From positions 23,971 through 87,970 of the forward strand of contig JAIDCC010000096.1 of the NCBI GenBank assembly GCA_029056055.1: a stretch of DNA of 64,000 nucleotides, in the 5' to 3' direction. The position numbers were made by a program, and so were the translations under genes. The stretch's first letter is position 1; each line of letters starts with the position of its first letter. This stretch comes from Duncaniella sp. GTDB taxonomy: Bacteria; Bacteroidota; Bacteroidia; Bacteroidales; Muribaculaceae. Shown here in pieces: positions 4,819-16,364 of this stretch. The notes beneath the pieces are model-generated. The model saw only the letters and a program-made list of their open reading frames with translations, searched no databases and had not been told where the DNA came from.

Positions 4819-5637
4819 ATGAAACTATTACGAAAACTCTTTGCAATTTTTGTGTTAGGGGGCGCACTGACAACTTCGCTGAAGGCTCAGACCACCGACA
4901 CGCTTATCATAAATAACGGCGAGCGACGCATCTTCGGAATCCATCACCGACCGGCGGGAGCGAAGGATGTGAATATGCCTGTATTGATTTTGGCTCACGG
5001 ATTTAACGGGACTCATCACTACGGGCGCAGCTACTTCGAACCGATGGGCGAGTTGGGCTATCAGACTTATACGTTTGACTTTCCCTGCGGGGGGACGGAG
5101 AGCGCTATCGACAACAATACGCTCAACATGTCGATTCGCGACGAGGAGTCGGACCTTTTGGCCGTGATTGATTACTTTGCTTCGCGGGAGGATACGGATG
5201 GGTCGCGGATAGTGGTGCTCGGCGGGAGTCAAGGGGGCTTGGTGTCGGCACTTGCAGCGTCGAAAGCACCCGAGAAGATTTACCGACTGATACTCGAATA
5301 TCCCGCGTTTTGCATACCAAACCATCACAACGGGCGGTATGGCTCGGTAGAGGAAATCCCCGACACGACTTATATCTGGAAAGTGCCACTCGGGCGGAGG
5401 TTTTTCGCAGAGTTGCGCGACATGGATGCCTTCGCGGGGATGGGGCTTTACACGCGGCCTGTCCTCATCATCCACGGCGACAAGGACCCGGTGGTGCCGC
5501 TGAACGACTCGGAGCGAGCCGTAGGGCTTTATCCGGACGCACGTCTTAAGGTGATAAGCGGAGCGGGGCATGGATTCTCGGGCGAAGATTTCACACTCAG
5601 TTTGAAGTACATTACAGAATTTCTCAAAGCAAAATGA
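4819..5637 (+). CDS. Secreted alpha/beta hydrolase
   Basis: Signal peptide from the ATG at 4819; LILAHGFNGTHHYG, nucleophile elbow VLGGSQGG, C-terminal IIHGDKDPVVP and GAGHGF; TAAATTTG box just upstream. Confidence 0.85.
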   Translation: MKLLRKLFAIFVLGGALTTSLKAQTTDTLIINNGERRIFGIHHRPAGAKDVNMPVLILAHGFNGTHHYGRSYFEPMGELGYQTYTFDFPCGGTESAIDNNTLNMSIRDEESDLLAVIDYFASREDTDGSRIVVLGGSQGGLVSALAASKAPEKIYRLILEYPAFCIPNHHNGRYGSVEEIPDTTYIWKVPLGRRFFAELRDMDAFAGMGLYTRPVLIIHGDKDPVVPLNDSERAVGLYPDARLKVISGAGHGFSGEDFTLSLKYITEFLKAK

Positions 5638-8030
5638 CGACAATAAGACATATCCTGACCGGGGCGCTCGCGGTGGTGGCCTCGACGTCGATAGCAGCGG
5701 AGAGCAGGACGCTCGAAGAGCAATTTCTCTCGCCGTCGGAGCAGCAGAAGCCGCTCATCATCTGGCAATGGATGGACGGGATGGTGACACGCGAGGGCAT
5801 AAGCCGCGACCTGAAAGCGTTTAAAGATGCGGGGTTGGCGGGTGTGCAGAACTTTCAGATAGGAGGCCCGATGCAGATGCGCGTGGGCAATCCGGAGAAT
5901 GCCATCGGCAATGACAACTGGAAACAGTTGCTCCGTTGGAGTCTTGACGAGTGCGCTCGCCTCGGATTGACGTTCGGCACACACAACTGTCCCGGATGGT
6001 CGTCGAGCGCCTACCCCACCGTGAGACCGGAGGAGTCGATGCAGATGCTCGTCTACACGGAGGCACCACTCCCCTCTTCGGGCGGCCGCGTGGTGCTCGC
6101 ACGGCCGGAGGTTGACCCACAGTGGGACTACTTCGAAGATGTGGCCGTGATGGCAGTGCCTGTAGATTCGACCGCGCGACACGAGGAAATCGTAGACCTC
6201 AGCCGATGGTTTGACCCTTCGACCGGGGTGCTTGAACTCCCTTCAGACGTGGCGCTCCCGGCAGGAAGCAGAGTGATGCGCATCGGTCAGACCACGAACG
6301 GCAAGACCAACTATGCGCAGTCGCCCGAAACGGGTCGCGGACTGGAGTGTGACAAACTCAGCCGCGAGGCTGTCAAGGCGTTTTGGGACGGATATCCGTC
6401 GATGGTGCTCGAAGTGGCCGGTGAGCACGCAGGCAAGACATTCACCCACTTTGAAATAGACAGCTACGAGGCGGGCGGCCAGACGTGGAGCCGCGTGCTG
6501 CCCGACGAATTTCAGAAACGCAAGGGCTATGACCTGCGCCCGTGGCTGCCCTACATGGCGGGGCGCCTGAAGCGCATCGGCAGCGAAGAGGAGACGGCAC
6601 GATTTCTTGCCGACTGGAGCGAGACCGTGAGAGACTGCGTGGCCGAAAACTACTACGGCTATATGACACAATTAGCGCATGAAGCGGGCGTCAACATGCT
6701 CATCGAGCCTTACGGCACGGGCCATCAACGACCGTTTCACATCATAGACTTCGAAAGAATCGTGCGAGCCTCGGAGGGAGCCGACATAGCGACGGAATTT
6801 TGGCAAGACCCGCCGAGGTGGGGTTGGAAAGACATGGTGCGCCACGAGGCGTCGATGCGCAAACTCGGCAAGCCGTTGCTCGTGGCCGAGGCATTCACCT
6901 GCTGGCCGCTCAGGGCATGGCAAGACAGTCCGGCCACAATCAAACCTATGTGCGACCGTGCATTCTGTCTTGGAGTGAACCGCATGATGCTCCACGCCGG
7001 AGCCGCCAATCCGTGGCCGGCGGCGCTTCCTGGAATGTCGTTCGGCCAATGGGGCACGCATTTCGTGCCGGGGCAGACATGGTGGATGGCCGGCGGAGCC
7101 AAAGAACTGTTCGGATACATGGCCCGCTGTCAGGCGCTGCTTCAACAAGGCATCCCCGCGCCCGAGCAGCTCAAAATGACGAAATTCCTGACCTATCGTC
7201 GCACCGACGGTGACACGGAAATCATTTTCATGTGCAATCAGGCCGACACCGTGGCTACGGACACGCTTAGATTCGACTTCGCGGGGCGCGGCGCTGAAAT
7301 CTGGAACCCTTACACATGCTCACGATATTCGCTCGCGACATCGCCCGAAGTTGCAGTAGAGATTGAACCCTTCGGGTCGCGTTTCATAGTGGTGCGTCCG
7401 GGCGAGAGCAGTCTTCCGGCGGAGACGAAGATAAGGGTGGCTGCAACGATGCCCGTCGAAGGCGGATGGTCGGTGAGATTTCCGGAAATCGGGACAATCG
7501 AGACCGACAGCCTCTTCTCGTGGGACGAGTCGGACAACCATGACATACACTATTTCTCGGGAACGGCACTCTATAAGCGTACCCTCGACGTAGACAGCTC
7601 AATGATTGCCGCCGACAACGGAAGGCTCGTGCTTTCGCTCGGCGAAGTGAACGACATGGCCTTCGTCAAGGTGAACGGCACGCCTCTGCCCCTTCTGTGG
7701 AAAGCACCTTTCGAATGTGACATAACCGACGTCGTGATGCCGGGAACAAATGTAGTGGAGATAGCGGTCACGAACCTTTGGGCCAACCGCATGATAGGCG
7801 ACGAGCTCGAACCCGACGACCTGGAATGGAGCGAGCGGCAAAATTTCCAAGGCTCTCAAGGAGGGTGTTATCTTTTGTCAAATCCTGACTGGCTTGTCAA
7901 CGGCACGCAGCGTCCGTCGAAGGGGCGCAAGACGGTGGGTTGTTACAAGTTTTTCACGGCCGATTCGCCCCTGCTCCCATCGGGGCTTCACGGCCCAGTG
8001 AGCCTGAAAATTATGAGCGCGAGAGAATAA
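5634..8030 (+). CDS. Glycosyl hydrolase, GH106 alpha-L-rhamnosidase-like
   Basis: N-terminal LIIWQWMDGMVTREGISRDLKAFKDAGLAGVQNFQIGGP and GTHNCPGWSSSAYPTVRPEESMQ, FEIDSYEAGGQTWS, C-terminal jelly-roll; overlaps previous stop (ATGA). Confidence 0.82.
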   Translation: MTTIRHILTGALAVVASTSIAAESRTLEEQFLSPSEQQKPLIIWQWMDGMVTREGISRDLKAFKDAGLAGVQNFQIGGPMQMRVGNPENAIGNDNWKQLLRWSLDECARLGLTFGTHNCPGWSSSAYPTVRPEESMQMLVYTEAPLPSSGGRVVLARPEVDPQWDYFEDVAVMAVPVDSTARHEEIVDLSRWFDPSTGVLELPSDVALPAGSRVMRIGQTTNGKTNYAQSPETGRGLECDKLSREAVKAFWDGYPSMVLEVAGEHAGKTFTHFEIDSYEAGGQTWSRVLPDEFQKRKGYDLRPWLPYMAGRLKRIGSEEETARFLADWSETVRDCVAENYYGYMTQLAHEAGVNMLIEPYGTGHQRPFHIIDFERIVRASEGADIATEFWQDPPRWGWKDMVRHEASMRKLGKPLLVAEAFTCWPLRAWQDSPATIKPMCDRAFCLGVNRMMLHAGAANPWPAALPGMSFGQWGTHFVPGQTWWMAGGAKELFGYMARCQALLQQGIPAPEQLKMTKFLTYRRTDGDTEIIFMCNQADTVATDTLRFDFAGRGAEIWNPYTCSRYSLATSPEVAVEIEPFGSRFIVVRPGESSLPAETKIRVAATMPVEGGWSVRFPEIGTIETDSLFSWDESDNHDIHYFSGTALYKRTLDVDSSMIAADNGRLVLSLGEVNDMAFVKVNGTPLPLLWKAPFECDITDVVMPGTNVVEIAVTNLWANRMIGDELEPDDLEWSERQNFQGSQGGCYLLSNPDWLVNGTQRPSKGRKTVGCYKFFTADSPLLPSGLHGPVSLKIMSARE

Positions 8031-8041
8031 GTATAGAATCA

Positions 8042-8085
8042 GAGGGTGACGATGAGCTGAAATTCATCGTCACCCTCCGGGCTTT
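8042..8085 (+). terminator. Intrinsic terminator-like hairpin after GH106
   Basis: GAGGGTGACGATGA-gctgaaat-TCATCGTCACCCTC, perfect 14-bp stem followed by CGGGCTTTT. Confidence 0.8.
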
Positions 8086-8172
8086 TCGTTAGCGGAATGC
8101 AGCAAGCGGACGGGGATTTCAGTTACATCAGATTCTTGGGCAAAAATACCATTGATGGAGGGGAAGCAGGTC

Positions 8173-8258
8173 CTTAATCGCAGTTTTTTGTAAAAATCGC
8201 GGTTATAATCGCAAAAATTTGTACCTTTGCGTCATCCTAATCGTGAAATTTTGTATGG
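8173..8258 (+). repeat. 86-bp direct repeat copy 1 (fic promoter/operator region and start codon)
   Basis: CTTAATCGCAGTTTTTTGTAAAAATCGCGGTTATAATCGCAAAAATTTGTACCTTTGCGTC...TATGG; identical to 9755..9840 except 8233/9815 (C/T). Confidence 0.97.
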
Positions 8259-9742
8259 CAGTAAAAGTAGACACCAAAAAAGAGATTATTTTCGGTTCGT
8301 CAGACCCGAACATTTCGCGTGTGCTCAGTAAGAAGGAGAAAGAGGGCGAACTGCGTAAGGTGGCACCACGAATTTATACTACCAACCTCATAGACAGTCT
8401 GGAAAACATCGTGCGTCGCAACCTCATGGATATACTTGTTTACCGCTACCCTGATGCGTTGATAAGTCACCGGAGCGCCAAAGAGATGCGTCCGACAGCA
8501 ACCGGTGACTTTTTCCTTACAAACTCAACTACAAGGCGAGTGACCGACTTGCCGGGCATTACCTTGAATTTTGTAAAAGGACCAAAGGCATCATCCCATG
8601 ATATTCCGTTCATGGGTATGCACATCTCGGGAGAACACAGATACATGCTTGAAAACATGCAGGTGTCACGCAAATTCGGTGACGAATCGCGTGTATTGCC
8701 CGTCAGTGTAATCGAAAATAAACTTGAACAGATTCTTCTGACAGGAGGTGAAGACCGTCTCAATCAATATCGAGATGAACTAAGGAGAGTAGCCGAAGAT
8801 TTGGATATGCAAGCTGAATTTGCGAAACTCAACAGCATTATCTCAGCATTGCTTTCAACACATGATGCGAATGTGTTGTCGACAGACTCCGCGAAAGCTC
8901 TTGCAGCGGGAAGTCCGTTTGACAGGACAAGAGTAGAATTGTTTGAGGTGCTATTTGACGCTATAAAGGACAGGTATTTCGTGATACGCAACAACCGCAA
9001 TACCGATGAGGAGTCTTTCCGTCTGTTCTCCTTTTTTGAGAGCTATTTCTCAAATTACATAGAGGGGACCGAGTTTGAGATTGATGAGGCTAAGGCGATT
9101 GTGGACTCAGGTATTCCTATGCCAAGACGTGATGAGGACTCACATGACATACTCGGAACTTTCAAGGTGCTGTCAAACCGCTCGGAAATGATGAAAACCC
9201 CGACATCGCCGGACGAATTGTTTGCGATTTTAAGTCACAGACATAGCGTATTGCTTGAAGGACGACCGCACATGAATCCCGGTATTTTCAAAACGAAGAA
9301 CAATCGTGCCGGAATGACGGAGTTTGTAGATAATCAGCTCGTGAAAGGAACACTCTCGCAGGGTTTCAAGTATTATGCAGCCTTGACCGACCCATTTGCG
9401 AGAGCAATATTCATGATGTTCATGATAAGCGAAGTCCATCCGTTCAATGACGGCAACGGACGCATCGCCCGTGTGATGATGAATGCAGAACTTGTGCGTG
9501 CCGAGCAGTCGCGTATCATTGTCCCGACTGTATTCCGTGAGGACTACATTCTCGCTTTGCGAAAACTGACCCGACACAAAGACCCTCTGGCATACATAAA
9601 CGTAATGACGAAACTCCATCAATTCAGCGACAACCTATATGGTACAGACTTCACAGAATTGAAAAACTACCTTGCTTCCTGCAACGCTTACGAGGAGCCG
9701 ACTCAAGGGAAACTGCAAATCATAGAGAGGTCTTTTGAGTAA
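8255..9742 (+). CDS. Fic family protein with AbiEi-like N-terminal region
   Basis: Fic motif HPFNDGNGRIAR; inhibitory-type (S/T)xxxE(G/N) motif SNYIEG; N-terminal LSKKEKEGELRKVAPRIYTTN...YPDALISHRSA resembles AbiEi-type wHTH/antitoxin regions. ATG at 8255 lies at the end of the repeat. Confidence 0.88.
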   Translation: MAVKVDTKKEIIFGSSDPNISRVLSKKEKEGELRKVAPRIYTTNLIDSLENIVRRNLMDILVYRYPDALISHRSAKEMRPTATGDFFLTNSTTRRVTDLPGITLNFVKGPKASSHDIPFMGMHISGEHRYMLENMQVSRKFGDESRVLPVSVIENKLEQILLTGGEDRLNQYRDELRRVAEDLDMQAEFAKLNSIISALLSTHDANVLSTDSAKALAAGSPFDRTRVELFEVLFDAIKDRYFVIRNNRNTDEESFRLFSFFESYFSNYIEGTEFEIDEAKAIVDSGIPMPRRDEDSHDILGTFKVLSNRSEMMKTPTSPDELFAILSHRHSVLLEGRPHMNPGIFKTKNNRAGMTEFVDNQLVKGTLSQGFKYYAALTDPFARAIFMMFMISEVHPFNDGNGRIARVMMNAELVRAEQSRIIVPTVFREDYILALRKLTRHKDPLAYINVMTKLHQFSDNLYGTDFTELKNYLASCNAYEEPTQGKLQIIERSFE

Positions 9743-9754
9743 GTCAGATAGAGT

Positions 9755-9840
9755 CTTAATCGCAGTTTTTTGTAAAAATCGCGGTTATAATCGCAAAAAT
9801 TTGTACCTTTGCGTTATCCTAATCGTGAAATTTTGTATGG
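9755..9840 (+). repeat. 86-bp direct repeat copy 2, downstream of fic
   Basis: 85/86 identity to 8173..8258 at a constant offset of 1582 bp. Confidence 0.97.
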
Positions 9841-9879
9841 TTGATATGACGGTAAACCTCGTAATGCGCGAATTTGAAT

Positions 9880-10437
9880 ATGGAATCAATGGGTGAAAAT
9901 CAGAAGTTTGAGCTTGATTTTTCAGAGAAAGCTGTAAGAAGCAATGAATGGACGATAATTTTATTAGTTATTCTCCCAATTTTACTGACATGCTGTGTCG
10001 GTATTAATGATGTAGCAGGATGGATAATCTTCGCAATTAACCTGACAGTACTTCTTACAGCGATCTTCGGAATTTACTTTGAGAGAAGGTTGGTAAGGGA
10101 GAGCTATTTCACGATTACAGAGAATAGGTTGATATGTGTCTACAAAGGCAGGACCGAAATAGAGTATCCAATAAAAGAAATATCGAAGATTGAAGAAGTT
10201 ACGCTCGAACAAGTTAAACAGAAACATCCGAAATATCCTTTGGCTTTGAATAACAAGGGGTATGAGTTATTTCCGCCAAAGGGTGTGCTAATAACATTCA
10301 ATCGCGCCTGGATAAAAAGTGTCTTTCCTGTCTATTTCAACCCGAGAGACATCGAGGGATTCATACTCGCGATAAAGCAACGGATGGAAGGAGGCTTAGA
10401 AAAAAGTGCTCTTAAAGTAGTATCTAAATCAGATTAA
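9880..10437 (+). CDS. Two-TM membrane protein with PH-like (STM3941-type) region
   Basis: Two hydrophobic helices (TIILLVILPILLTCCVG, IIFAINLTVLLTAIFGIYF) then TITENRLICVYKGRTEIEYPIKEISKIEEV; ATG at 9880 or 9889 preferred over the TTG at 9874. Confidence 0.65.
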   Translation: MESMGENQKFELDFSEKAVRSNEWTIILLVILPILLTCCVGINDVAGWIIFAINLTVLLTAIFGIYFERRLVRESYFTITENRLICVYKGRTEIEYPIKEISKIEEVTLEQVKQKHPKYPLALNNKGYELFPPKGVLITFNRAWIKSVFPVYFNPRDIEGFILAIKQRMEGGLEKSALKVVSKSD

Positions 10438-10533
10438 CGCTCATTCCTGATGTTTTTTGTTCAGGAAATTGCAAATATTTTGAAGTGCGCAGGATGGTTG
10501 CGCAGAGGGGGTGTAACTTTGCATCGTAAACTA

Positions 10534-10718
10534 TAAGTAAGTTCTAAAAATAAAACGATATATGTAAAGAAAAATTCTTGAACAATAAAACTCGTTCTTT
10601 TTGGATGCTTTGAGCCTTTCGTTCAGGCGCATAGCTCGCTATGCTTCTTCACTCAAGCCCCAAACCATCTCAAAAATAACTTCCTTTTATCTGTTCATTT
10701 ATTTTTCTCACTTACTTA
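10534..10718 (+). repeat. Palindromic intergenic element, family A, copy A1
   Basis: TAAGTAAGTTCTAAAAATAAAA ... ATTTATTTTTCTCACTTACTTA ends; apical GCATAGCTCGCTATGC at 10629..10644; near-identical to A2, A3, A4. Confidence 0.95.
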
Positions 10719-10730
10719 AATGACACTGAT

Positions 10731-11987
10731 ATGAAACGAATAGAAGGTTACGATGTGAAGATTTTCACGGACAATATCGAGGCGACGGCGCTTGAGCAGA
10801 TTAAGGAATTGCTTAGGATAGATGTTTTCGCAGACAAGAAAATCCGCGTGATGCCCGATGTGCATGCCGGGGCGGGGTGTGTGATAGGGTTCACGGGTGA
10901 CCTTGGCGACAAGGTGATACCCAACATCGTCGGGGTGGACATCGGGTGCGGGATGCGTGTGCTTAATCTGGGAAAGCTCGGAGAGATAGATTTCCCGGGG
11001 TTGAGCGAGCATATCCGCCTCAATGTGCCGTCGGGCAAGATAGCCCGAGAAGAGCGTTTCGGTTTCACTCCGCTGCGAGGTGAAGAGATGGATATTTATC
11101 GCGAGGCGAAGAAGCTCGTGACCGAACTCCACTGCTATCGCGAGCTGAAGGACACGGGGCGCATCAACAAGTCGATAGGCACACTCGGCGGGGGAAATCA
11201 TTTCATCGAACTCGACAAGGATGACGAGGCGAACGTCTATCTGGTGATACACACCGGCTCGCGCAATCTCGGCAAACAGGTGGCCGACATCTATCAGGCA
11301 AAAGCTGTGGGGCATCTCACCGAGGGGGCAGACGAGTTTGAGGAGACGGTCAAGCGGACTATCGAAGAATACAAAGCTGCGGGACGACGCTCGGAGCTGC
11401 AAAGTGTGTTAAAAAAGATGCGTAAGGAGCGAGCAGAGGCGAAGCCGTCGCTTCCCGAGGCGCTGTGCTATGTAGAAAGCGAGGAACGCGAGAGGTATCT
11501 GCACGACATGCGTCTGTGTCAGCGATGGGCGGTACTCAACCGCCGGTTGATAGCCATGCTGCTTATGAGATACTTCGAGGGGGTGAGCCCGACGGAGGAA
11601 TTCGAGTCGATACACAATTACATCAGCGACGACAACATCATCCGCAAGGGCGCCATCTCGGCGGCAGAGGGAGAGCGCTGCATCATCCCGCTCAACATGC
11701 GCGACGGCTCGCTGATTTGCACCGGGAAGGGAAATCCCGACTGGAACCGGTCGGCGCCTCACGGAGCGGGGCGAGTGCTGAGCCGCGCGCAGGCCTACGC
11801 AAAAATCAGCATGGAGGAGTTTGAAAAGTCGATGGAGGGGATTTACTCGGAGACGGTGAATGATTTTACCCGTGACGAGTCGCCTATGGCCTACAAACCG
11901 GCCGAGGAAATTATCGCGAACATCGGCGACACGGTGAAAATCGACACGATAATACGACCGATATTCAACTTCAAAGCATCTAATTGA
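10731..11987 (+). CDS. rtcB: RtcB family RNA ligase
   Basis: RVMPDVHAGAGCVIGFT, VGVDIGCGMR, GTLGGGNHFIEL, HTGSRNLGKQVA, SAPHGAGRVLSR. Confidence 0.93.
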   Translation: MKRIEGYDVKIFTDNIEATALEQIKELLRIDVFADKKIRVMPDVHAGAGCVIGFTGDLGDKVIPNIVGVDIGCGMRVLNLGKLGEIDFPGLSEHIRLNVPSGKIAREERFGFTPLRGEEMDIYREAKKLVTELHCYRELKDTGRINKSIGTLGGGNHFIELDKDDEANVYLVIHTGSRNLGKQVADIYQAKAVGHLTEGADEFEETVKRTIEEYKAAGRRSELQSVLKKMRKERAEAKPSLPEALCYVESEERERYLHDMRLCQRWAVLNRRLIAMLLMRYFEGVSPTEEFESIHNYISDDNIIRKGAISAAEGERCIIPLNMRDGSLICTGKGNPDWNRSAPHGAGRVLSRAQAYAKISMEEFEKSMEGIYSETVNDFTRDESPMAYKPAEEIIANIGDTVKIDTIIRPIFNFKASN

Positions 11988-12212
11988 CAAGCGTTTGAGC
12001 TGTTTACCGGAAAGAGTCTTCTTTTCGGCTGACAACGTTAGGGAGATGAGCGCAGTCGTGGTGAGAAACGCCTGTGGCGGGCGTGATTTCGAGATGCCGT
12101 AGAGGACGGCGACTTTACCTCAACCCTCGCGGCTGATGTTTTTTCACTACCTTTGTAGGAGCGAGGCCGCCGTACGGGCGGCGGCGCATCACCTTACCCA
12201 ATCACGCTACAA

Positions 12213-14237
12213 ATGAAAAAAATATTCATCATCACACTGACCGCGGCCATCCGGCTCACTGCAGGCGCGTGGACCGTCGTCCCACACAACGACGGCACGA
12301 CGGCGTTAGACTTCGCCGACATCGCAAAGGGACACCCGACGCCCTTCGCCATAGAGCGCGCCGAAGGCAAATGGAGCCATTATACCAAAATCGGAGAAAC
12401 ACGCGAAGCCCGATTCACGGATACTGACAAAGTGAAACCCACCGGGGCATATTACAGGATTGTAGACGCCAAGGGGGTGGTCATCGACACAATTTCATTT
12501 GACCGACAGCTTTTCGGCGACAAAATCATAGTCTTCTCACCGACCGACAACATGGACTCCGTGGCAGCCACCGCCGCCATGATAGACCGGCGTCTCTTCG
12601 GCCACGAGATGGATGCCGACCGCTACGCGCTGGTGTTCAAACCGGGCGACTACCGCGAGGCGGGGTTAATCAACGTGCCCTTCTACATTCATATAGCCGG
12701 CCTGGGCTCGACACCCTACGAGGTAGAAGTGTCGAACATCCATACGCCTCCCCACCTGCGCGAAGGCAACGGCACATGCACATTCTGGCGCTCGGCAGAA
12801 AACCTGTCGGTGGTCGGGCCGGAGACCTACGACGAACCGGAGACCTTCAAGTGGGCCGTCTCGCAGGCAGCCCCCATGCGCCGTGTCTACTCAAACCGCA
12901 CCCTGCGCACACAATGGGGCAACGGATGGGTGAGCGGCGGCTATGCAGCCGACTGCCGTTTCGACGCTCCCGCCGGGTCAGACCATCAGCAACAGTGGTA
13001 TTACCGAAACTCCATCCTCAACAAAGGCCGCGGCAACTTCCGCGAGGAGAAATACAATTATTGTTTTCAAGGCGTAGAGTTCGGCCCGGAAGCAGACATG
13101 GCCACCTATCGCAACAACTGGGACGAGGGCGGCAACGTCACCGTGATAGAGACCACCCCTCTGATAGCCGAGAAGCCCTTCCTTTGTCTTGGCGACGACG
13201 GGCGCTACAAAGTGTTCCGCCCCGCCTTCCGCAGTGAGGCCAAAGGCGTGTCATACGCACTCGGCAATCCCGGCAAAGGCGAATACCTCGACCTGCTCGA
13301 TACGTTCGAAGTGGTTAAACCGGGCGCAACCTCTGCCGAGATGAACGCCGCCCTCGCCGCCGGCAAAAACCTGCTCATTACGCCGGGAATGTTTACGCTC
13401 GACGAACCGCTCCGCATCACCCGCCCCGGCACCGTTGTGCTCGGCATAGGCTGGGCCACACTTATCCCCGGCGAAAACAACAGCGAGGGGGCCATCGTGA
13501 TAGACGACGTAGACAACGTGGCCGTCGCTTCGCTGCTCTTCGACGCCCATTACAGCTCTGACACACTGCTTAAAGTTGGCAAAGAGAAAACCTCTGTCTC
13601 ACACGAGGGAGCGCCCGTTCTTCTCTCCGACCTCTTCTTCCGCATCGGCGGTTTCCGTCCCAATCCGGTGCACGTTGACCGCGCGGTCGAAATCAACAGC
13701 AACAACGTCGTGGGCGACCACTTCTGGATATGGCGTGCCGACCATGGCGTGCGCGGCAGCGTGGGCTGGGCGGTCAACACCGCTCCCAACGGCCTCGTGG
13801 TCAACGGCGACGACGTGACCGTCTACGGTCTCTTCAACGAGCATTTTCAGGAATACCAGACACTTTGGAACGGTGAACGCGGACGCATGTATTTCTACCA
13901 ATGCGAGACTCCCTACGACTCGCCCACCCAAGCCCACTACATGAGCGAAAACGGCACGCGCCCCGGCTATGCGGCCTACAAGGTGAGCGACGGAGTGAAA
14001 AACCATTTCGCTGCAGCCTTGGGTATCTACGATGTGCTGGTCAATGAAATCCGTATCGAAAACTCCATCGAAGTGCCCGATGCGGAGGGGGTCAACGTCT
14101 ATCACGCCTGCAACAACTCGCTGTCTAACGGCGGCAAACGCGGCTTCGGCTTCGTGATAAACGGCCTCGGCAAAAGCACCTACGACACCTTCCGCGACAA
14201 CCGCGTCGTGGTCAACAACTACCGCGAGGGTAAATAA
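12213..14237 (+). CDS. Secreted right-handed beta-helix protein (pectate-lyase/GH55-like fold)
   Basis: N-terminal signal, beta-helix style repeats (LLITPGMFTLDEPLRITRPGTVVLGIGWATLIPGENNSEGAIVIDDVDNVAVASLLFDA); specific activity not assignable by eye. Confidence 0.6.
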   Translation: MKKIFIITLTAAIRLTAGAWTVVPHNDGTTALDFADIAKGHPTPFAIERAEGKWSHYTKIGETREARFTDTDKVKPTGAYYRIVDAKGVVIDTISFDRQLFGDKIIVFSPTDNMDSVAATAAMIDRRLFGHEMDADRYALVFKPGDYREAGLINVPFYIHIAGLGSTPYEVEVSNIHTPPHLREGNGTCTFWRSAENLSVVGPETYDEPETFKWAVSQAAPMRRVYSNRTLRTQWGNGWVSGGYAADCRFDAPAGSDHQQQWYYRNSILNKGRGNFREEKYNYCFQGVEFGPEADMATYRNNWDEGGNVTVIETTPLIAEKPFLCLGDDGRYKVFRPAFRSEAKGVSYALGNPGKGEYLDLLDTFEVVKPGATSAEMNAALAAGKNLLITPGMFTLDEPLRITRPGTVVLGIGWATLIPGENNSEGAIVIDDVDNVAVASLLFDAHYSSDTLLKVGKEKTSVSHEGAPVLLSDLFFRIGGFRPNPVHVDRAVEINSNNVVGDHFWIWRADHGVRGSVGWAVNTAPNGLVVNGDDVTVYGLFNEHFQEYQTLWNGERGRMYFYQCETPYDSPTQAHYMSENGTRPGYAAYKVSDGVKNHFAAALGIYDVLVNEIRIENSIEVPDAEGVNVYHACNNSLSNGGKRGFGFVINGLGKSTYDTFRDNRVVVNNYREGK

Positions 14238-14269
14238 CACTACCCTTCCCAACCAAGAAATACCTCAGT

Positions 14270-14308
14270 CCCCGACGGAGCGCCACATTCGCCCGTCGGG
14301 GATTTTTT
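14270..14308 (+). terminator. Intrinsic terminator
   Basis: CCCCGACGG-(loop)-CCGTCGGGG followed by ATTTTTTC. Confidence 0.82.
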
Positions 14309-14340
14309 CAAAATAAGTAGACTTCGTGACCAAAAACATT

Positions 14341-14370
14341 TTGAATTTAGGCCTTAATGTCGTATCTTTG
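14341..14370 (+). promoter_or_regulatory. Bacteroidetes-type sigma-ABfr promoter for the AAA15/RloB operon
   Basis: TTG (14341-14343)-N19-TATCTTTG (14363-14370). Confidence 0.7.
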
Positions 14371-14398
14371 CAAAAACAATGTAAAAATCCGACACGGC

Positions 14399-15742
14399 AT
14401 GATACTTAGAGCAACCTTCGAAAACATTTATTCGTTCGAAAAAGAAACGTCTATCAGCTTTGTAGCCGGCAAGAGTTCCGTCCACTCGTCACACGTCAGC
14501 CGGGCGCTAAAGCGTGACGACATCTCGGCGCTGAGGTTCGGAGTAATCTACGGAGCAAATGCGTCAGGGAAAAGCAACGTTATAAAAGCTCTGTCGTTAC
14601 TCCAGCAGATAGCGTTGGGGCGCTTTCCGAGCGGCGACTTCGAGGCGTTCAAACTTACCACACCCGTCAAACCCATCTCGAAACTCGAGGTGGAATTCAA
14701 GTATCGTGGCCGTTACTTTGCATACGGAATAGAGTTTACACATCAAGTGCTCAAAGAAGAATGGCTCTACGAAATCAACAGCCGTTCCGACAAACTCATA
14801 TTTACCCGAAAGACAGACAGTAGCGGAAACCTCTTTGATTTTGGCGATATCAAAGAGGATGGCACGGCAACTCAATTCGTTAAGTTTCTCGGCGAGGGCA
14901 CGCCCTTGAAGAAAAGTTTTCTGTCGGAATACGTTGAACGCAACGGCAAAGGTCTGAGCGCAATTAACGCTGCACACGAATGGTTTGCTACCGGGCTTCA
15001 CATCATTTTTCCTGAGACACGTTTCAGGGGGATATCATTTGGCGCCGAGCAAGACGAGAGTTTTCACGATGCCACCCGACGGTTGCTGAACTATTTCAAC
15101 ACAGGCATAGTGGATATCAGACGGTTTCCCGTAAGGTCGAAGGAAGAGACCAATCTGCCGGAGACACTGCTGGATGCGATTATCGCAAACTCCACCCCCG
15201 GGCGCACCTCGCTCGTCGCAACCCCGGGCAGTAACGAATGTTTTTTCTTCGATTTTAAAGAAGACGGCACCTATCAGATTTTCAAACAGAAAGCCGTGCA
15301 TAAGAATGACACAGATGAAGAAGTGGTCTTTGAAATGGACGAGGAATCAGACGGCACCATCAGACTTCTCGACTTCATTCCGATGCTGATTGACCTTCGT
15401 AAAAACGAGACAGACTACCTGATTGATGAGCTTGACAGAAGTATGCACCCGCTTCTGTCGCAGAAACTTATCGAGTGCTACCTGCATGACCTCACCCCCG
15501 ACAAAGACACTCAACTGATAATTTCCACCCACGAAAGCAATCTTCTTAATCTGGAAATAATTCGCGCCGACGAAGTTTGGTTCATCGAAAAAGATGGTAA
15601 CGGCGCTTCCCGACCGGTCTCGCTCGCCGAATACAAACCGCGGGAAAACGTTCGGAAAGGCTACCTCCAAGGCCGCTACAGCGCCATACCCTTCTTTGCC
15701 CCGATTGAAACTCTTAATTGGGAGGAAAATGAGAAAGCGTAA
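14399..15742 (+). CDS. AAA15-family ATPase (RloA / AbiL-type defence ATPase)
   Basis: Walker A GANASGKS, Walker B region LIDELDRSMHPLLSQKLIE, ISTHESNLLN, C-terminal YLQGRYSAIPF typical of AAA_15 proteins. Confidence 0.85.
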   Translation: MILRATFENIYSFEKETSISFVAGKSSVHSSHVSRALKRDDISALRFGVIYGANASGKSNVIKALSLLQQIALGRFPSGDFEAFKLTTPVKPISKLEVEFKYRGRYFAYGIEFTHQVLKEEWLYEINSRSDKLIFTRKTDSSGNLFDFGDIKEDGTATQFVKFLGEGTPLKKSFLSEYVERNGKGLSAINAAHEWFATGLHIIFPETRFRGISFGAEQDESFHDATRRLLNYFNTGIVDIRRFPVRSKEETNLPETLLDAIIANSTPGRTSLVATPGSNECFFFDFKEDGTYQIFKQKAVHKNDTDEEVVFEMDEESDGTIRLLDFIPMLIDLRKNETDYLIDELDRSMHPLLSQKLIECYLHDLTPDKDTQLIISTHESNLLNLEIIRADEVWFIEKDGNGASRPVSLAEYKPRENVRKGYLQGRYSAIPFFAPIETLNWEENEKA

Positions 15743-16364
15743 GGATTTTGTCAGACTGGAGGGAGTGCGCTCCGCTCGGTTGGTGGTTATCGCGAGCGAG
15801 GGCCGATGCTCCGAAGCTATTTATTTTTCGGCCGTGAGAGACAATTTGCGGGCGCCCAACGTGCATGTCGAGATATTGGAACGTGATACAAACGAATCTT
15901 CACCTGAAAAAGTCCATGCTCAGATAGCCGAGTTCATGCGCCATTACAATATCGAGGACGACGATGAATTGTGGCTTGTAATCGACCGCGACCGCTGGCA
16001 CGACCGCATGCTTTCAAGCGTTGCGCGACTTTGCGCACAAAACTCCCATCTGAATTTCTGCATGAGCAATCCATGTTTTGAATTATGGCTTTTGCTCCAC
16101 CTCGAAGATATCAGGACCTATGACGGGGAAACCATTGCCGAGCTTACGGCCAACAGGAAAAACAGTGCCGGTGTGACATGGCTGAAAAAACGTATGCGCG
16201 ATTTGCTCGGCTCTTATAACGAATCTAATTATGACGCGGTGTCGTTGCTGCCCAACATTGACCGGGCGATTACGATAGCTCGTGACTTAGACACCAATCC
16301 CTCAGACCGATGGCCTCAGACAACAGGCACACGTGTCTACCGCCTGATAGAAAGCATCCGGTAA
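15729..16364 (+). CDS. RloB-like (TOPRIM-like) protein
   Basis: VIASEGRCSEAIYFSAVRD, ELWLVIDRDRW, CMSNPCFELWLLLHLED match the RloB family pattern; overlaps AAA15 stop by 14 bp. Confidence 0.82.
   Translation: MRKRKDFVRLEGVRSARLVVIASEGRCSEAIYFSAVRDNLRAPNVHVEILERDTNESSPEKVHAQIAEFMRHYNIEDDDELWLVIDRDRWHDRMLSSVARLCAQNSHLNFCMSNPCFELWLLLHLEDIRTYDGETIAELTANRKNSAGVTWLKKRMRDLLGSYNESNYDAVSLLPNIDRAITIARDLDTNPSDRWPQTTGTRVYRLIESIR

Follow-up and report, generated by a model that had tools for sequence, protein, structure and literature searches.

What does an 86-nt sequence do that stands, almost unchanged, on both sides of a fic gene, and does it serve fic alone or also the gene that follows? The locus lies in a 64,000-nt stretch of a Duncaniella sp. 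genome (here called the window), and the features of the fic locus placed below, from the hairpin to the membrane-protein gene, are on the forward strand. An initial annotation had described the sequence as a duplicated promoter/operator cassette that drives fic and then a membrane-protein gene.

The repeat pair and its iterons

Repeat comparison and a genome search bore out the flanking repeat. Copy 1 (8173-8258; also supported by per-position conservation), 5' of fic, and copy 2 (9755-9840), which begins 12 nt past the fic stop, are identical at 85 of 86 positions and lie 1582 bp apart from start to start; within 5000-14000, no other repeat approaches this pair. They are the sole two copies in the 2.9-Mb genome (2,875,599 bases; E 2.7e-39 and 8.7e-38, next match E 0.4), which rules out chance. 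Between a GH106 gene and copy 1, a hairpin can be read off the sequence (8042-8077; arms 8042-8055 and 8064-8077, forming a perfect 14-bp stem with an 8-nt loop). It is likely to separate fic from upstream transcription, so that fic is probably its own transcription unit.

Each copy contains three direct 18-nt iterons (TAATCG...TTTGTA) at spacings of 31 and 32 bp, about three helical turns apiece, which were defined by iteron alignment and a genome pattern search. In copy 1 these are TAATCGCAGTTTTTTGTA (8175-8192), TAATCGCAAAAATTTGTA (8206-8223), and TAATCGTGAAATTTTGTA (8238-8255). The second overlaps the box TACCTTTG (8222-8229), and the final base of the third is the A of the fic ATG. The -7 consensus of Bacteroidota is TAnnTTTG, and the box, as read from the sequence, fits it. 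The corresponding iterons of copy 2 occupy 9757-9774, 9788-9805, and 9820-9837, with the box at 9804-9811; both boxes lie where the initial annotation had placed them. The role of the repeat as fic promoter/operator, with a Bacteroidota-type promoter, is thereby supported. Searched through the whole genome with at most one mismatch, the iteron pattern gave six sites, all inside the two repeats, while the reversed pattern, used as a control, gave one match; the possible regulon here is therefore fic plus the membrane-protein gene. We regard the iterons as probably the Fic protein's own DNA-binding sites.

The "AATCGC units" of the initial annotation are present, but their real form, three direct 18-nt iterons, had been missed, and the near-palindrome GCGGTTATAATCGC had been taken for the operator of a dimeric regulator. 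The near-palindrome does occur in both copies (8199-8212 and 9781-9794), and a few relatives (L079, L073, and L039) have a perfect version, GCGATTATAATCGC. Its left half (repeat positions 24 to 30), however, varies freely among fic-linked copies, with 59 to 82% conservation per position, whereas the direct iterons average 93 to 97%. On this measure we dropped it as an operator, a role that we now find scarcely credible.

The Fic protein and the promoters of its orthologues

The fic gene (8255-9742) encodes 495 amino acids. Its C-terminal half is a Fic domain (Pfam Fic, E 2.2e-11), also matched by the PADLOC SoFic and PDC-S04 models. The catalytic motif HxFx(D/E)GNGRxxR is present as HPFNDGNGRIAR (HPFNDGNGRxxR, residues 395 to 406), with its key residues invariant in the orthologue alignment, and the class II inhibitory motif (S/T)xxxE(G/N) is found N-terminal to the Fic core as SNYIEG (S266NYIE270G271), of which S266, E270, and G271 are invariant in two orthologue alignments. 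Judged by these motifs, the Fic domain is intact and of the self-inhibited class II.

The N-terminal half (about residues 1 to 200) has no Pfam family match in the window protein; weak matches to Pfam AbiEi_4, below the cut-off, occur in 4 of 16 orthologues and not in the window protein. Since a fold search with the whole chain returned Fic-domain matches only, we built a separate model of the N-terminal part (215 aa, mean pLDDT 86.9). The top PDB match of this model was AbiEi of Streptococcus agalactiae (6y8q; E 4.4e-4, probability 1.00, TM 0.42 to 0.45). The N-terminal half is thus predicted to carry the AbiEi fold with an N-terminal winged helix-turn-helix (wHTH), and the model supports the earlier suggestion that the N terminus is the likely DNA-binding part. 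Public plasmid records label such proteins merely "Fic family protein," and we found no description of AbiEi and Fic joined in one protein in the open-access literature. Both this predicted architecture and the conserved multisite promoter geometry set out next, as read from sequence, were not found described before.

Binding of the iterons by Fic predicts that their layout, and not their letters, is preserved in other Fic lineages, and this is what was observed. Fic orthologues of roughly 37 to 94% identity were taken from genomes of the family and order, from IMG/VR, and from plasmids, and their promoters were scored for a 16-nt direct repeat with at least 12 of 16 positions matching at a spacing of 31 or 32 bp. 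Such a repeat was present in 24 of 29 fic-orthologue promoters versus 2 of 135 control promoters drawn from the same loci (Fisher p 9e-22, a value somewhat overstated because the test treats orthologues as independent; most of the compared lineages share less than 75% protein identity). A 41-bp spacing, about four turns, occurred in 10 of the 29 and in 1 of the 135 controls. Five of the 29 orthologues fail the 31/32-bp definition; in two of these the repeats are spaced more widely, by 63 bp in L053 and by 61 bp in L203. Sites within one promoter agreed at a mean of 14.4 of 16 positions versus 10.4 of 16 between lineages, the latter scored at the best position in the other promoter. The letters are lineage specific, as seen in TATAATGGAAAAAATT (L167), TTTTAGGAACAAAAAT (L161), GCACTTTTGTTGACAT (L182), ACTAAAAATGGTCAAA (a Bacteroides fragilis plasmid, L198), and CGAAAAACACGACAAT (Variovorax, L202), and the layout is kept on Bacteroides, Hymenobacter, Variovorax, and Sphingorhabdus plasmids and at IMG/VR loci, so that it spans Bacteroidota, Proteobacteria, and viral-collection contigs. 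A constant geometry with a lineage-specific sequence is as would be expected if Fic and its site co-evolve.

On IMG/VR contigs L179 to L189, whose Fic homologues have about 41% identity, the third iteron falls within the first codons (ATGAACACTTCTGTTGACC). The fic orthologues on plasmids of B. fragilis (L198) and Hymenobacter (L199) have DUF6088 genes nearby. We considered and rejected a phage origin, as IMG/VR lacks the exact core pattern though it contains Fic relatives, and plasmid spread of the window Fic type, as its plasmid relatives are all below 60% identity.

Arrays in Muribaculaceae and the downstream gene

Among 297 genomes of the family, the array was found in 56, the Fic protein in 27, and both in 24. 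Named records assign these genomes to the Muribaculaceae, and some labels of metagenome-assembled genomes (MAGs), Clostridium or Alistipes for instance, are probably mistaken. The 32 of 56 array-positive genomes that lie outside the fic-positive set raise the question of whether a separate regulator, encoded by the host or by an element, binds the iterons instead of Fic; some of these are incomplete MAGs, whereas others are not, such as G092, which consists of a single contig. We consider this quite improbable, in that the layout tracks fic across two phyla while the sequence shifts with the Fic lineage, and Fic itself is predicted to have a DNA-binding fold of the AbiEi type. Arrays without fic are explained by frequent loss of fic that leaves remnants behind.

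About 60 distinct copies begin to resemble one another at the identical base and have unrelated sequence on the upstream side. We sorted 59 copies into 22 before fic (including L114, itself a remnant), 6 before remnants of a fic start, and 31 elsewhere. In these 31, iteron 1 is conserved at 95%, iteron 2 at 98% (a biased figure, since this iteron, and not iteron 1, was in the search pattern for some loci), iteron 3 at 85%, and the TTTG of the -7 box at 54%. TAnnTTTG is intact in 18 of 22 fic-linked copies versus 8 of 37 non-fic copies, and the array appears to have spread or persisted without promoter function away from fic. Non-fic arrays frequently adjoin defence or toxin-antitoxin genes. 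Beside them lie AbiLi-like ATPases, an AbiEi gene, Septu PtuA/PtuB, and MqsR-like, SocA-like, GNAT, and PLD genes, as well as ordinary ones; by our reading, defence genes adjoin roughly half of these arrays. At L162 and L164 the array is oriented against its neighbor. The idea that the array supplies one common promoter to all defence modules was rejected in that form, because most non-fic copies are without the TTTG of the -7 box and because several of the genes concerned have, by eye, a separate box closer to their start. It is a tentative possibility, one that we doubt on balance, that Fic represses a dispersed Muribaculaceae defence regulon through portable iteron arrays (at AbiLi-like, AbiEi, Septu, MqsR-SocA, and second-Fic modules), from which loss or titration of Fic, e.g., during phage infection, would release Fic and the other defence genes. 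Were the arrays that lie near defence genes without a promoter bound as well, they would form a shared switch for defence islands of gut Bacteroidota.

A different account of the dispersed copies makes the repeat mainly a recombination or insertion site, between copies of which cassettes like fic move, as in integron or rAID-like arrays, with the promoter carried along. The sharp left edge of similarity, the unrelated flanks of so many distinct copies, their position between modules, and the existence of solo and remnant copies would all suit such a site. Genes resembling those of tyrosine recombinases are found close to some island copies (L073, L081, and L162). In the window, however, no recombinase gene was recognized by eye among the open reading frames (ORFs) of 5000-15000, and an Rfam scan of 7900-10750 gave zero matches, on which a structured RNA was also rejected. 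Moreover, distant orthologues keep a multisite promoter of unrelated sequence, which a site shared between modules leaves unexplained, and the fic remnants of relatives are internal deletions (L071, L113, and L114); the clean excision between repeats that the initial annotation had thought possible was not seen among them. We therefore judge a primary role in recombination unlikely.

In mobile islands fic is sometimes followed by McrBC, NACHT, or PDC-S06 genes; in most lineages it is solitary. Three further arrangements were seen in relatives. About eight tandem 32-bp iteron units directly precede the 3' end of a deleted fic (L113:3053-3380). A separate AbiEi gene (PADLOC, E 1.7e-64) stands behind an iteron array that lacks a good -7 box (L066:9386-10502), next to a fic that has its own array. 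In L102 and L122, the start of a different Fic-like gene (MKTELEKLVRRYRELGID...), recognized by sequence likeness, lies downstream of the same type of array.

The gene behind copy 2 encodes a 185-aa membrane protein (9880-10437, from ORF and family searches) for which no Pfam, NCBIfam, or PADLOC family was found; homologues occur in 9 other genomes among the 297. The ATGG that ends both copies had been taken for a gene start in each. In copy 1 it is indeed that of fic (ATG at 8255), but that of copy 2 begins no more than a 19-codon ORF (MVDMTVNLVMREFEYGING, 9837-9896, by sequence reading) overlapping the membrane-gene start, so that the membrane gene begins at the ATG at 9880, about 40 nt after the repeat. 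It nevertheless very likely shares the cassette of fic, as proposed, given an intact copy 2 with its -7 box at this distance. The initial annotation had staked its reading on the repeat pair being kept with this fic gene, and here the outcome was divided: the 5' copy is found at essentially every close orthologue, but the 3' copy is found at about 2 of about 21 distinct fic 3' ends. Besides the window, only genome G137 has a second array right after fic, a pair that is probable there, as fic is split over two contigs (L074 and L075). Since the pairing with the membrane gene is unconserved, control of that gene by Fic may be accidental.

Copy 2 might even be an inert by-product of a tandem duplication that gave repeat-fic-repeat-fic, after which the second fic disappeared; the membrane gene would then be independent of it. 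Duplication with fic loss is a possible origin of the array pair: the L074 array after fic retains a decayed fic start, and the sequence upstream of this array is similar to the flank that precedes fic in L075. The two window copies also share bases absent from all other copies (GCGTYATCC...GAAATTTTG), which suggests that one was recently made from the other within this lineage or that gene conversion homogenizes both. With the rarity of the flanking pair, such recent copying would suit an inert copy 2. We nonetheless hold inertness to be rather unlikely, because copy 2 is intact, keeps its -7 box close to the membrane gene, and is separated from fic by merely 12 nt, and because a membrane-gene homologue elsewhere also has part of the repeat. 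At L084 and L155 this homologue (56 to 57% identity) is preceded by the last 39 nt of the repeat, without fic, and the link between array and membrane gene may thus predate the present arrangement.

Also at L084 (about 1380-1417) and L155, a long palindrome, CAAAGGTACATAAAAA...TTTTTATGTACCTTTG, with two face-to-face -7 boxes sits between the membrane-gene homologue and its divergent neighbor. In same-genus rtcB neighborhoods, neither fic nor the membrane gene was found beside rtcB, and the pair thus looks like an insertion relative to those genomes. Four kilobases downstream of the window membrane gene lies a pair of the AbiLi/RloB-like abortive-infection type (14357-16364), an AAA ATPase matching PADLOC AbiLi (E 2.6e-76) and then an ORF that appears RloB-like by eye, without an iteron array in front.

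Proposed autoregulation and related systems

We consider it probable that a Fic protein with an AbiEi-like repressor half autoregulates through three iterons and that the duplicated array brings the membrane gene under the same control. What was observed is the repeat itself, the phased iterons, the architecture of the protein, and co-variation across the family; from these we infer that Fic binds and represses, that the downstream gene is controlled as well, and that the enzyme is toxic. The predicted N-terminal winged helix would bind three direct iterons on one helix face, 31 and 32 bp apart. Site 2 covers the -7 box and site 3 the start codon, so that binding would turn off fic; negative autoregulation by Fic is the likeliest reading of the sequence and model. 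Repression would keep a potentially toxic AMP-transferase low, and through the downstream duplicate the membrane gene would answer to the same putative repressor, giving a regulon of two members, six iterons, and two promoters. This would amount to a rule for a large set of Fic proteins, most of them solitary, in which enzyme and repressor share one chain, the operator is a set of direct repeats whose sequence changes across phyla while its geometry does not, and the binding site of each orthologue could be read from its own promoter.

For Fic-HTH proteins of the CbFic2/SoFic type, we know of no multisite promoter arrays and of no reported AbiEi-like N-terminal half. Like the window protein, as predicted, they combine a Fic enzyme with a DNA-binding domain, and fusions of this general kind have long been on record (PMC2686095). 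The activity of Coxiella CbFic2 is reportedly induced by DNA binding (PMC10628234). Repressors beside varied defence genes are also known, namely BrxR, CapW, and RptR (PMC9122601, PMC9122588, and PMC12255303); they are dedicated transcription factors, whereas the repressor proposed here is the AMP-transferase itself.

AbiEi is a proven autorepressor that acts on several promoter repeats, including sites over the transcription start (PMC3985639 and PMC7319586). The window protein resembles this group, that of the AbiE type IV toxin-antitoxin systems (S. agalactiae AbiEi and Mycobacterium tuberculosis Rv2827c), in the best PDB fold match of its N-terminal half, in a predicted wHTH plus a second domain, and in repeats within its own promoter, one over the -7 box and one over the ATG. 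AbiEi acts with a separate nucleotidyltransferase toxin, AbiEii, whereas the putative repressor half is here fused to a Fic domain; no AbiEii (DUF1814) gene is adjacent, the next gene being that of the membrane protein without a family. AbiEi also binds inverted repeats, whereas the sites here are direct, 31 to 32 bp apart. CccR of Yersinia pseudotuberculosis is a Fic toxin that represses its own promoter by means of its own HTH domain (PMC9755527), so that negative autoregulation by a Fic protein, inferred for the window, is proven there. CccR, however, is a secreted T6SS effector with a C-terminal HTH that binds a palindrome as a dimer, while the window Fic has a predicted N-terminal AbiEi-like DNA-binding part, three direct sites, and nothing pointing to secretion. 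By analogy, AbiEi autoregulation and CccR are the nearest proven cases for the regulation proposed here.
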